NCBI GenBank assembly: GCA_017395935.1
Contig: JAFQNL010000019.1
Location: forward strand, 186,001 to 250,000
Length of the DNA: 64,000 nt
Direction: 5' to 3'
Source: Oscillospiraceae bacterium
GTDB lineage: Bacteria > Bacillota > Clostridia > Oscillospirales > Oscillospiraceae
Part shown: positions 37,412-55,150 of the stretch, one piece after another
How the letters are laid out: each line of letters begins with the position of its first letter
How positions within the stretch are numbered: the first letter of the stretch is position 1
Notes under the pieces: model-generated
Told to the model about the DNA's origin: nothing
Seen by the model: only the letters and a program-made list of their open reading frames with translations
The model's database searches: none
Made by a program: the position numbers and the translations under genes

Positions 37412-38272
37412 ATGACTGTGATCTATGTCGATACCGTACTGGTGCTCAACAGTATTTTGGACTATCTGCTGCTTCTTTCGACGGCAAAGCTGACTGCCCA
37501 ACCCTTTTCAAGGCTGCGCCTTCTGGCCGGAAGCCTTCTGGGCGGCGGATACGCAGTGCTGTTGTTTCTTCCGGACGCTCACTGGCTTTCAAATCCGCTG
37601 ATTAAGCTGCTGTGGGCTGTTCTGATCGTGCTGGTCGCGTTTGGCTTAGGCGGAGATCTGCTTCGGCTGACTTTGGTCTTTTTGGCTCTGTCATGTTCAC
37701 TGGCTGGGATACTGGTGCTAGTCTCTTTGTTCTCCGCTGCAAACCTGACCTATCCACAGGGGATCCCGGTCACATCAATGGACTGGAAAGCGCTGATTCT
37801 GGCGGCATCTCTATGCTATCTGCTCTCTGCCACTTTCCTGCGCAGAATAGCGGACCGGAGAGAGACCAGACTGCTGCCCGTCAAACTTCGATGGGACTGC
37901 CGTCAGACTGCCTTCACAGCGCTGGAGGATACAGGAGATCTGCTTACAGACCCTGCCGGCAACGGACCGGTTCTGGTGGTCTATTGGAAGACTGCGGCAG
38001 CCGTTCTTCCTCAGCTGCCCCGTCTTCAGGAATCAGATATTCGAGACCCGGTCGAAGGAATCGGCCGGTTAGCGGACAGTTGGGGGAGAGGACGGCTGAA
38101 CTTGCTGCCCTATCGTGGCATCGGAAGCGGACAGCGATTTCTTCTTGCCGTCCGGGTGGACAGCGCTGTAATCAACGGCGAAGTGCTTCACGGTCAACTG
38201 GTCGCTCTGGCACCGGATCAGCTCTCAGAAGGAAGTTATCAGGCCGTAATCGGCCCGCGGAAAGGAGTTTAA
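37412..38272 (+). CDS. spoIIGA: Sigma-E processing aspartic protease SpoIIGA
   Basis: Membrane protease that removes the pro-sequence of SigE after signalling from SpoIIR. The 286-residue protein has about five hydrophobic segments in the first 145 residues and then a cytoplasmic domain with the aspartic-protease motif [12 protein letters not shown] (Asp173, D-T-G), followed by PVLVVYW. GAAGGGGTGATGAG precedes the start. A TATACT lies at 37381-37386 and a TTTGACC just before it, possibly part of a Spo0A box, but I cannot define the promoter. It is followed by sigE after one base. Confidence 0.93.
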
Positions 38273-38273
38273 A

Positions 38274-38990
38274 ATGGATCTGAGACTTTTGCTGCACTGT
38301 CTGATTGCCCGATTGAAGGCGTTCTGCGGCTTGTCAGAGGGCGTTGGTTACATTGGCGGCAGCGACACTCTGCCTCCACCGATCTCCCGGGAGCAGGAAA
38401 AACAGCTGCTGCAGGAAAGCAGAGAAGGGAACCAGCAGGCAAGGAATGTTTTGATCGAGCACAATCTGCGTCTGGTCGTCTATCTGGCCAGACGGTTTGA
38501 GAATACAGGCATTAATCTGGAAGATCTGATCTCTATCGGCACCATCGGGCTGGTCAAAGGGGTCAACACCTTCGACCCTGATAAGAATATCAAGTTGGCT
38601 ACCTATGCCTCCAGATGTATTGAAAACGAGATCCTGATGCATTTGCGAAAGACTGCCAACCAAAGGGGAGAGATATCCTTTGATGAGCCGCTGAACACCG
38701 ATTGGGATGGAAACGAGCTGCTGCTGTCAGATATTCTCGGTACAGACGAAGACGTTGTCAGCAGACCACTGGAAGAAGCCGCCGAGCGTCAACTTCTTCA
38801 CGCAGCGCTGGAGACACTCAACGAGCGTGAACTGCATATTATTGCCAGCCGGTTTGGTTTGGGCGGCCGGCGCAGCTGCACGCAGAAGGAAGTCGCCGAT
38901 ACAATGGGTATCTCTCAGTCCTATATTTCCCGTCTGGAGAAAAGGATTATCACCCGGCTGCGCTCAGAAATCCTTCGGATGAGCGGCTGA
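38274..38990 (+). CDS. sigE: Sporulation sigma factor SigE (mother cell)
   Basis: A 238-residue sigma-70-family factor. The N-terminal stretch before residue 27 is the expected pro-sequence, with processing by SpoIIGA. Region 2 includes [20 protein letters not shown] and [19 protein letters not shown]; region 4 has the helix-turn-helix [27 protein letters not shown] lies 6 bases upstream. It is adjacent to spoIIGA as in all spore formers. No terminator is visible after it, so read-through into the next two genes is expected. Confidence 0.95.
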
Positions 38991-39105: not shown

Positions 39106-40614
39106 ATGAAAAGAATTAAGAATCTTCCGGCAATCGTGCTGGCTGTTGCGCTGCTGATAAGTCTGCTGAGCGGCTGCGGTGCCAAGTCTCCCGTTGATGG
39201 ATACTATGGTCTGCTTGAGGAGATGCAGGCCACAATGAAAGCGGGAGCCAAGTCCGACATGAGTCTTGACTTTGAGATGGATGGAATGCCGATCGCTGTC
39301 GATCTTGAACTGCTCACCAAAGGTGAGGAGGACGGCCGAATCAACGGCTCTGTCGAAGTTTCCGGCATCTCTGTTAAGATCCCTGAGATTCTCTTTAACG
39401 ACGGTACAGTTATCTATCTGGATGGCTCCGGCTTTGCTGATCTGCTGACGCTGGCGGATTTGGTAGACGCCGAGGTTCTGGATCAGATTCGAGGTAAGCA
39501 TCTGATGATGACGGTTGAGCAGGCTATCGCCACCGAGATGGATGCGGAGGCTATCGCTCTGCTGGAGTCCACCAGCCGTAAGTGCGCTGACGAGCTCAAG
39601 GCCCGGGCGGAGCTCTACTCTGAGGACCCCGACCAGAAGGGTACCTATGTTCTTGAAGTGAGCGGCAATATACTCTATGATCTGTTTTTGGTTGCAATCA
39701 ACGATATGATCGAGCATCAGGATGCCTATATTGACTTCATTTACGACTCTGTCGGTGCAAATAAGTACATGACCAGAGAAGATCTGGAAACTGCCTTTGC
39801 CGAGATCAAGACCTCTCTTGAGTCCGATGACAGCACCTTGCCTGCAGAGGTAGTTGAAAAGCTCAACGGAATCCACTTGACCAGCGCCATCAGCAAGGGT
39901 AAGGATAATAGCTATCAGATTGAAAGCGTTCTGACGATTGAAATCGAGGGCGAAGCGATCGCACTCAACATTTCCGAGACAGTTATTGCCGTGAAGGAAG
40001 AGCTGGACTTCACCATTTCCGGCGAAACGATCGACTTTGAAGAGTTTGCCGAGTCGTTGGTCAACTCTCTCTATGGTTATAGCTATGAAGACGATTACTA
40101 TTTCGAAGACGTGGAAGACGTTTACGCGACCGGCACGCTCGATCAGCTTGATTTGACCACTGCCACCGATCGCGTGGACACCATTACCATTGTCTCTGCC
40201 TCCGGTACCAGATGCTCGGTTGCTGTCCCCAATGACATGAACTGGAACGAAGCCTATATTGATTCCGCACTTAACAGTGTTACCGGCAGTGACAAGGACA
40301 TCTCCTATTTTTACTCTGCCTACACCACTCCCATCGACGATCTGGATTTGGATGCCTTTATTGACGATGCCGTTGCATCCTTTAATGATCCGGAAATCGG
40401 AGGCGATGTGACACGGACTGAGAAAGTAGTTGGCAATGATGTATATGCCATGGCTTTGGAGGGCAATTACAGCGGCCTTGATCTCTACGAACTCTTTATT
40501 GTGGAAAACATTTCTGCAGATGAGTGCGCAGTGATCACGGTTCTCCTCTATGGAAGTGATCTGACACCGGTCCAGAGCTTGGTAGACTACTACGACCTGA
40601 CTCTTCCTCGCTAA
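39106..40614 (+). CDS. Acidic lipoprotein of unknown function, between sigE and sigG
   Basis: A 502-residue secreted lipoprotein: basic N-terminus, hydrophobic core and lipobox LSGC with Cys24. The mature part is strongly acidic, with no domain I can name. It has repeated beta-strand-like stretches (SMDVDLE-like patterns: DMSLDFEMDGMPIAVDLELL, then NSYQIESVLTIEIEGEAIAL), a short tyrosine/acidic run near residue 325 (GYSYEDDYYFEDVED) and a C-terminal domain from about residue 345. I prefer ATG 39106, with GGAGG 7 bases upstream. Its position between sigE and sigG is unusual, as these genes are adjacent in most spore formers. Confidence 0.85.
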   Translation: MKRIKNLPAIVLAVALLISLLSGCGAKSPVDGYYGLLEEMQATMKAGAKSDMSLDFEMDGMPIAVDLELLTKGEEDGRINGSVEVSGISVKIPEILFNDGTVIYLDGSGFADLLTLADLVDAEVLDQIRGKHLMMTVEQAIATEMDAEAIALLESTSRKCADELKARAELYSEDPDQKGTYVLEVSGNILYDLFLVAINDMIEHQDAYIDFIYDSVGANKYMTREDLETAFAEIKTSLESDDSTLPAEVVEKLNGIHLTSAISKGKDNSYQIESVLTIEIEGEAIALNISETVIAVKEELDFTISGETIDFEEFAESLVNSLYGYSYEDDYYFEDVEDVYATGTLDQLDLTTATDRVDTITIVSASGTRCSVAVPNDMNWNEAYIDSALNSVTGSDKDISYFYSAYTTPIDDLDLDAFIDDAVASFNDPEIGGDVTRTEKVVGNDVYAMALEGNYSGLDLYELFIVENISADECAVITVLLYGSDLTPVQSLVDYYDLTLPR

Positions 40615-40648
40615 CCAACAAAGCCTCCTATCCGGCAAAACTCCCCCT

Positions 40649-40678
40649 GCATAGCAAAAACCTCCTGTGGAGATACTG
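40649..40678 (+). promoter_or_regulatory. Candidate SigF-type promoter of sigG
   Basis: GCATA (40649-40653), 15-base spacer, GGAGATACTG (40669-40678) matches GYWTA-N15-GGnnAnAHTR at every fixed position. In B. subtilis sigG is a SigF target. The start would fall near 40685, inside the hairpin described at 40661-40697. Confidence 0.7.
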
Positions 40679-40697
40679 TTAACAGTACCACAGGAGG
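40661..40697 (+). promoter_or_regulatory. Hairpin that masks the sigG ribosome-binding site
   Basis: CCTCCTGTGG (40661-40670) is perfectly complementary to CCACAGGAGG (40688-40697). Between them TACTGTTAACAGTA (40674-40687) is itself a perfect palindrome, leaving only AGA bulged. The 17-bp stem-loop buries AGGAGG (40692-40697), the sigG Shine-Dalgarno sequence. A comparable leader hairpin damps sigG translation in B. subtilis. Confidence 0.85.
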
Positions 40698-40705
40698 TTT
40701 CGCTC

Positions 40706-41479
40706 ATGTATGGGAAGGTAGAGATCTGCGGTGTGAATACCGCCAAGCTGAAAGTGCTTAAAAGCGAGGAAATGACCGCCCTCCTCCGGCGGGTAAAGGA
40801 AGGAGATCAGGAGGCCAGAAAAGAGATGATCGAAGGTAATCTCAGACTTGTACTGTCGGTGATCCAACGTTTTGCCGGAAGAGGGGAAAATATGGACGAC
40901 CTGTTTCAAGTAGGCTGTATTGGGCTGGTCAAGGCAGTGGATCGGTTTGACTGTGATCAGTACGAGGTCAAATTCAGCACCTACGGAGTTCCCCTGATTT
41001 TAGGTGAAGTCCGCCGTTTTCTGCGTGACTCCTCTTCTGTGCGGGTCAGTCGATCCACCCGGGATCTCGCTTACAAGATCCTTCAAGCAAAGGAAGCGTA
41101 TTTGAAAGACCACCAGCAGGAGCCCACCTTGGAGCAGCTGGCCAAACAGCTCCATGTAAAGCGGGAGGAGGTCGTATTTGCTCTGGACGCCATATCCGAT
41201 CCGGTCAGTCTCTACGAGCCAGTCTATTCCGATGGCGGAGACACCGTTTGTGTGATGGATCAGGTCAAAGACGAGAAAAATACCGATGAGCGCTGGCTGG
41301 AACATCTGGCCCTTTCAGAGGCAATGCAGCAGCTGACCGAGCGGGAAAGGCATATTCTGGAGTTGCGCTTCTATCAGGGAAAAACTCAGATGGAAGTCTC
41401 CGCCGAGGTGGGTATCTCTCAGGCACAAGTATCCCGGCTGGAAAAGGGGGCACTTCAGCAAATCAGAAAAAGCCTATAA
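40706..41479 (+). CDS. sigG: Sporulation sigma factor SigG (forespore)
   Basis: A 257-residue late forespore sigma factor. The N-terminus MYGKVEICGVNTAKLKVL is characteristic of SigG and fixes the start at 40706 (AGGAGG 8 bases upstream). Region 2 is NLRLVLSVIQRFAGRGENMD, with FDCDQYEVKFSTYGVPLILG; region 4 ends EVSAEVGISQAQVSRLEKGA. A longer frame reaching 40667 would put the ribosome site inside the gene. Regulation appears both transcriptional (SigF-type promoter) and translational (masking hairpin). A terminator follows. Confidence 0.96.
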   Translation: MYGKVEICGVNTAKLKVLKSEEMTALLRRVKEGDQEARKEMIEGNLRLVLSVIQRFAGRGENMDDLFQVGCIGLVKAVDRFDCDQYEVKFSTYGVPLILGEVRRFLRDSSSVRVSRSTRDLAYKILQAKEAYLKDHQQEPTLEQLAKQLHVKREEVVFALDAISDPVSLYEPVYSDGGDTVCVMDQVKDEKNTDERWLEHLALSEAMQQLTERERHILELRFYQGKTQMEVSAEVGISQAQVSRLEKGALQQIRKSL

Positions 41480-54779: not shown

Positions 54780-54809
54780 GAATATCCCCTCCCCAAGGAA
54801 ACATATCCT
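54780..54809 (+). promoter_or_regulatory. Candidate SigE-type promoter of the SpoIVFA/FB-like pair
   Basis: GAATATC (54780-54786), 15-base spacer, CATATCCT (54802-54809) resembles the SigE pattern KMATATT-N14-CATACAHT at most fixed positions. In B. subtilis the spoIVF operon is SigE-dependent. The start would fall near 54816, within the hairpin below. Confidence 0.45.
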
Positions 54810-54823
54810 TTAGGGGAGGGGAT
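54784..54823 (+). terminator. gltX terminator-like hairpin that also masks the next ribosome site
   Basis: ATCCCCTCCCC (54784-54794) pairs perfectly with GGGGAGGGGAT (54813-54823); inside, AAGGA pairs with TCCTT. The helix is followed by TTT and then the ATG at 54827. The only Shine-Dalgarno-like sequence of that gene (GGGGAGGGG) is fully inside the 3' arm. As a terminator its T-run is short. Confidence 0.8.
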
Positions 54824-54826
54824 TTT

Positions 54827-55150
54827 ATGTCTGAACACTTTCATTCCAATGAGCCTAACAACCGCAAGCCGTCCGGAGCCGGAAAGACCATTCTTGGCAC
54901 CATTCTGACGGTTCTCGTTACCCTTTTCCTCTGGACGGCGCTGTCTGCCTGGCGTCCGGAATTGGCCAGCTATCTGACCCATCAGATCAGTTCAGCGCTT
55001 CCTGGAAGATTTGAACTGACCTCAGCCTTTACTCAACTTGGGGAGGCAATGCAGGAACTGAAGGATCCAGCCAAAGCGGTAGGGGACTGGTGCGTTTCCG
55101 TATTCCTTCCGCAGGACCTGACGCAGTCCACAGAGGAGCATGAGAAGTAG
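54827..55150 (+). CDS. Small single-pass membrane protein, possible SpoIVFA counterpart
   Basis: A 107-residue protein with a basic N-terminus, one membrane segment (about residues 21-41) and a 65-residue extracytoplasmic part. I recognise no domain; there is no LytM/M23 domain as in full SpoIVFA. The case for SpoIVFA rests on context: it overlaps by 11 bases a gene for an SpoIVFB-like M50 protease and has a candidate SigE promoter. A small regulator or anchor of that protease is therefore a reasonable guess. Its ribosome site lies in a hairpin. Confidence 0.7.
   Translation: MSEHFHSNEPNNRKPSGAGKTILGTILTVLVTLFLWTALSAWRPELASYLTHQISSALPGRFELTSAFTQLGEAMQELKDPAKAVGDWCVSVFLPQDLTQSTEEHEK

Follow-up and report, generated by a model that had tools for sequence, protein, structure and literature searches.

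A sigG promoter in an Oscillospiraceae genome whose spacer encodes a probable silencer of read-through RNA

The sigG promoter analysed here is probably a built-in insulator against read-through: RNA arriving from upstream genes would be silenced by a stem that buries the sigG Shine-Dalgarno sequence (SD), and RNA made in the forespore would be translated. SigG must be inactive until engulfment and everywhere except in the forespore. The promoter lies in a 64-kb stretch of DNA ("the window") drawn from a 2.07-Mb assembly, and its pairing is conserved among relatives in step with the exposure of sigG to read-through. Comparison of hundreds of relatives extends an idea from B. subtilis and suggests a widespread safety device. 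The mechanism is not new; new are the comparative test and an either/or pattern of hairpin, terminator or divergent neighbour.

Genes, promoter and hairpin in the window

All features of the locus are on the + strand, where spoIIGA, sigE, a lipoprotein-like ORF and sigG are consecutive. spoIIGA (37412–38272, sigma-E processing peptidase) matched NCBIfam TIGR02854 with E 1.5e-42 and 145.9 bits, below the curated cut-off of 209.55, and sigE (38274–38990) matched NF006158 and TIGR02835, both above cut-off. sigG (40706–41479, ATG at 40706) scored 417.8 bits against NF006071 (cut-off 372) and 405.1 bits against a second SigG model, TIGR02850, below its cut-off of 457. Read-through had been ascribed in the initial annotation to spoIIGA-sigE; both genes are indeed upstream, but a 1.5-kb ORF (39106–40614), not sigE, adjoins sigG, and spoIIGA-sigE is therefore not necessarily the only source of a threatening transcript. 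A signal peptide and lipobox were read from the sequence of this ORF, and searches of NCBIfam and Pfam with it returned zero matches. No intrinsic terminator was found by scanning from the ORF to the sigG promoter. The nearest named relatives among the contigs compared were uncultured Clostridiales and Oscillospiraceae.

A SigF-type promoter was present at 40649–40678 as first described: a -35 element GCATA (40649–40653), recognised by sequence and by a promoter matrix, a 15-nt spacer (40654–40668) and a -10 element GGAGATACTG (40669–40678). From the position of the -10 element, a spacing rule places the predicted forespore start at 40684 (± ~2 nt), upstream of the SD AGGAGG (40692–40697). RNA entering from further upstream was predicted to fold so that the 5′ arm (40658–40670) and the 3′ arm containing the SD (40688–40700) form an outer 13-bp stem, followed by a 3-nt AGA bulge (40671–40673) and an inner palindrome, TACTG-TTAA-CAGTA (40674–40687), with a 5-bp stem and a TTAA loop. 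CCTCCT at 40661–40666 pairs with the SD, which is fully paired. Thus a hairpin burying the sigG AGGAGG exists as had been claimed, but it is an 18-bp stem (13 + 5) with a bulge and not a perfect 17-bp one. Its 5′ half contains most of the promoter spacer, the source of the anti-SD segment of the arm, and 7 of the 10 bases of the -10 element are paired. Since the promoter lies within the 5′ half of the hairpin, RNA from the predicted start would be without the 5′ arm. An Rfam search of 40400–40900 gave 0 matches up to E 1.

We propose that RNA polymerase coming from the upstream genes of this organism would make RNA carrying both arms, in which the spacer-encoded anti-SD arm would pair with the SD and block ribosomes in the cell. 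In the forespore, polymerase with SigF (later SigG) would initiate downstream of the 5′ arm; the resulting mRNA could not form the stem and would be translated.

The fold was compared with chance. RNA with both arms had a predicted energy of -55.5 kcal/mol (z -4.83), and 0 of 200 shuffles were equally stable; for RNA from 40685 onward z was +0.74. The cost of freeing the SD ("occlusion") was 18.9 kcal/mol with the 5′ arm and 4.7 without it, part of the SD pairing weakly with downstream bases in the short RNA. When the upstream part was shuffled, mean occlusion was 5.2 kcal/mol and none of 60 shuffles reached 18.9. Against a matrix trained with loci from relatives, the promoter scored highest in the window (15.3; runner-up 8.1), the window itself being one of the training loci.

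By occlusion, sigG ranked second among the 66 window genes scored by our own gene caller. Rank 1 went to a stronger hairpin at 54784–54829 (21.8 kcal/mol) that sequesters the SD belonging to a small ORF (ATG 54827, to 55150) and is followed by TTTT. The matrix detected no SigF-type promoter at this ATG (best score -4.2), and the hairpin may be the terminator of the preceding gene.

Hairpins and exposure to read-through among relatives

sigG upstream regions were gathered from the genus, family, order, class and phylum, together with 80 named contigs (the best 80 of 562); the collection is a sample and not all genomes. The 368 sequences collected were reduced to 352 unique loci by removing 10 in which no sigG start was recognised (mostly split or cut sigG loci), 5 duplicates and 1 with too little or ambiguous upstream sequence. 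The promoter matrix fitted 313 of these, against 3 of 352 shuffled regions, and the 39 loci scoring below 8 were left out. The spacer was 15 nt in 209 of the 313 promoters, 14 nt in 91 and 16 nt in 13. A 15-nt majority agrees with PMC5942855, where a shorter 14-nt spacing is given for 3 of 13 Clostridia.

Two cultured relatives, Flintibacter muris (L204) and Pseudoflavonifractor phocaeensis (L193), have strong stems, with an occlusion of 18.7 and 18.2 kcal/mol, respectively. Across loci, pairing strength was expressed as excess occlusion, the real value minus the average obtained after shuffling the upstream part 40 times. In the 102 loci with strong hairpins (excess >5), the SD bases had 573 partners: the -35/-10 spacer supplied 510, the -10 element 33 and the stretch from there to the start 30. 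The folded RNA began 5 nt before the -35 element, so that partners further up are invisible in these counts. Every SD partner lay within the spacer in 84 of the 102, and five or six SD bases were paired in 93; a terminator-like U tract followed the helix in 10. With SD partners mostly in the spacer and U tracts rare, the common element is a promoter with a spacer-encoded anti-SD arm, an arm that RNA from the predicted start of such a promoter does not include.

If the stem silences read-through RNA, it is expected to be kept only at those loci whose sigG lies within reach of read-through. Loci were called exposed when a co-directional gene lay within 450 bp with no intrinsic terminator. Because antisense shadow ORFs in GC-rich DNA can pass for divergent genes, upstream genes were assigned by our own codon-scored caller, in which errors are still possible; for the same reason 38 of the 313 loci, with an upstream gene more than 450 bp away or none found, were excluded from the final exposure test.

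Exposed loci (n = 132) had a median excess of 5.24 kcal/mol, and 85 of them exceeded 3 (47 did not). The medians were 0.39 for loci with an intrinsic terminator (n = 54; 15 above 3) and 0.51 for those with a divergent gene (n = 89; 22 above 3). Orientation, the first hypothesis, separated exposed from divergent loci with a Mann-Whitney P of 4e-11, and the terminator hypothesis, formed after looking at the structures and not fixed beforehand, separated exposed from terminator loci with P 5e-8. Within the order the terminator contrast was smaller (median 3.6, n = 22, versus 6.2 for exposed loci, n = 78) than outside it (-0.1, n = 32, versus 3.0, n = 54), where exposed loci had lower excess than within the order, 27 of the 54 being above 3.

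Where sigE was directly upstream, excess exceeded 3 in 2 of 27 loci with a terminator versus 53 of 87 without one; the SD hairpin and the intrinsic terminator thus seem to substitute for each other. Outside the order, a terminator was present in 25 of 75 sigE-adjacent loci. Extending the RNA to 160 nt upstream raised the number above 3 from 26 to 29 of these 75, so most of them were not rescued. Examples of relatives with sigE directly upstream and no SD hairpin are L258–L261, L282, L298, L300 and L366 in the class and phylum set; in such relatives the interval from sigE to the sigG promoter often holds a stem like that of an intrinsic terminator, with a T run.

Within the genus, the five loci that have the window's stem and a neighbour other than sigE immediately upstream (the window, L004, L008, L013 and L016) had the strongest stems, with an excess of 13.6–16.4, and eight sigE-adjacent loci with the same stem (L005–L007, L009–L011, L019 and L020) had 6.9–9.4, groups that are not phylogenetically independent; a ninth, L022, had 5.0. 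Homology among the inserted genes was weak: the lipoprotein-like ORF of the window had only matches of 24–31%, beside sigG in L008, L013 and L171 (a duplicate of L004), and none was seen in L016.

Relatedness was taken into account by generalised least squares on a FastTree phylogeny of 159 loci that had an unambiguous context and encoded full-length SigG (best lambda 0.90). Relative to exposed loci, the effect was -4.98 for divergent loci (se 0.89, P 1e-7) and -1.79 for terminator loci (se 0.79, P 0.024); at lambda 0.95 the P values were 2e-6 and 0.09. The orientation effect is thus robust to tree correction and the terminator effect weak. Keeping the distant-gene loci in (173 loci) gave a weaker difference in the same direction between exposed loci and the rest (2.65, se 0.69, P 2e-4). 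The exposed member was higher in 14 of 21 independent pairs (Wilcoxon 0.006; sign test P 0.19, not significant), and in 16 of 25 when terminator or distant-gene loci were retained (Wilcoxon 0.03).

The initial annotation had staked its proposal on conservation of the pairing among relatives, and pairing was in fact kept through sequence change and tracked exposure. It had also called for compensatory changes in aligned relatives. Among the 11 nearest, 2 of the 18 pairs had changed on both sides, but this covariation is modest: 96.0% of cells were paired versus 95.0% in shuffles, and 4 of the 11 sequences had a mismatch at one pair. Because close relatives vary too little, chimeras were used, in which the upstream part was swapped for that of another genome of similar GC. 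In exposed loci, median occlusion was 9.3 kcal/mol with the cognate and 4.2 with the non-cognate part (P 1e-18). Terminator loci showed no lowering on swapping (median difference -0.13, P 0.13), divergent loci a small one (0.32, P 0.006). Since swaps clearly lowered pairing only in exposed loci, the arms have co-changed where read-through can arrive. Arm sequences differ widely among relatives, and pairing is retained. Conservation of this kind supports the idea of promoter and silencer in one element, with the start and the silencing as predictions from sequence.

An insulating hairpin could also work by ending transcription. If it were mainly the intrinsic terminator of the upstream transcript, with the SD in its stem by chance, ordinary terminators would be expected to replace it, as they seem to do in the sigE-adjacent loci. 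Hairpin loci also have more T after the SD (3.21 of 6 positions versus 1.75 in loci without a hairpin), and TTTTT follows the stem in some sister loci (L005, L008). We nevertheless regard termination as unlikely to be the main role, given the scarcity of U tracts after strong hairpins and their nearly complete pairing of the SD. The window stem itself does not have the form of an intrinsic terminator (a G+C-rich stem directly followed by a U tract): the letters after it are CGCTCATG, or TTTCGCTC when the A-U pairs are excluded, and fall short of the criterion of 5 T in 8. That an invariant SD pairs by chance with a C-rich spacer in the promoter, without selection, is very unlikely. SD and promoter are fixed motifs and 22 of the 89 divergent loci still exceed 3, but neither shuffled nor GC-matched foreign upstream parts recreate the pairing in exposed loci, and the pairing varies with the direction in which the upstream gene points.

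The wide differences between arm sequences, with pairing kept, make it very improbable that the palindrome is a regulator site in DNA over the promoter and not an RNA structure, although TACTGTTAACAGTA is a perfect palindrome across the -10 element; most strong hairpins, moreover, are centred on the SD and spacer, not on a common motif. Least of all do we expect the stem to dampen translation of the forespore mRNA itself, in the manner of a small RBS hairpin of B. subtilis. The modest occlusion left in window RNA from the predicted start would fit such dampening, but that start excludes the 5′ arm, and mean occlusion from the predicted start was 2.7 over the 313 loci.

Returning to the insulator, it seems moderately likely that in Clostridia the spacer of the sigG forespore promoter is under double selection, for promoter spacing and as the anti-SD arm of a silencer present only in read-through RNA. 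This silencer would be gained or lost with exposure, exchanged for intrinsic terminators or a divergent neighbour, and strengthened where a gene other than sigE adjoins sigG, as in the window. The pattern would make selection against sigG read-through visible in sequence, and predicts which species make silent sigE-sigG RNA. It bears on the early silence of sigG in Clostridia with adjacent sigE and sigG, a question left open in the accounts of PMC2530871 and PMC3789822.

Split sigG genes

In genus g31 of the same family, sigG was cut at about codon 97 in five loci, L396–L400 (genomes G109, G205, G264, G083 and G153, respectively). The halves were ~6.4 kb apart and in the same orientation in four of the five genomes; in G264 the 5′ half was inverted. 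Both junctions have a TGCCGATGAT-like core in common. ORFs of the split loci were listed for three genomes (G109, G205 and G264). By Pfam, a large serine recombinase adjoins the 3′ half in G109 and in G264, and ThiF, ThiS, aldehyde:ferredoxin oxidoreductase, 4Fe-4S and iron alcohol dehydrogenase genes lie between the halves in G109, which the G205 locus resembles by eye.

The same break, with the 3′ half starting at residue 91–95, was seen in other genera and in two other families (L055–L060, L371–L377). The halves were on separate contigs in six genomes (G014, G034, G035, G036, G321 and G369), and in G026 and G428 the 3′ half was found and the 5′ half was not. Pfam identified a serine recombinase as the neighbour of the 3′ half in G026, G034 and G035. 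In G032 the break was at contig ends, possibly an assembly gap. The forespore, in which sigG acts, goes on to become the spore, so a cut in the gene would be inherited. Skin elements are mother-cell rearrangements, unlike such a heritable cut in a forespore gene.

Comparison with known sigG insulators

Read-through spoIIGA-sigE-sigG RNA is known in B. subtilis and C. acetobutylicum, and a SigF-like start has been mapped before sigG in C. difficile (PMC2530871, PMC3789822); in B. subtilis the read-through sigG RNA is described as untranslated (PMC2530871). According to PMC5942855, which credits Masuda 1988, a large read-through hairpin at B. subtilis sigG (spoIIIG) joins upstream sequence to the sigG RBS by "20+" pairs and is impossible in RNA from the sigG promoter. 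On this account the mechanism put forward in the initial annotation was already published for B. subtilis. No cross-genome test of the 1988 translational insulator was found in the open-licence literature searched.

PMC5942855 also describes a separate, small RBS hairpin of 5 bp, lying wholly inside the forespore mRNA and dampening translation 2–4-fold at all times. The leader hairpin that had been cited as known to reduce translation does exist in B. subtilis, but it is this small one, which had been merged with the large one. The sigG RBS is occluded in the window as in the small hairpin, but the five-pair leader stem is not found there, and it is not possible because the ~8 nt between the predicted start and the SD are too few.

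An intrinsic terminator between sigE and sigG resembles the window element in insulating sigG from read-through, but it acts on transcription, requires a U tract and works independently of the SD. The closest resemblance is to the large hairpin of Masuda. In both, a long stem ties up the sigG RBS through pairing with sequence that precedes the sigG start. The predicted start in the window comes after the 5′ arm, so that by prediction the stem cannot form in promoter RNA. Gene order and strand (spoIIGA, sigE, sigG) are the same, but the window has the 1.5-kb ORF in between, and its read-through RNA is putative. It differs in belonging to another class, in the lipoprotein-like gene directly upstream and in having 18 bp against "20+" pairs. 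Agreeing with the Masuda type in those sequence features that could be compared, the window element would work in the same way.
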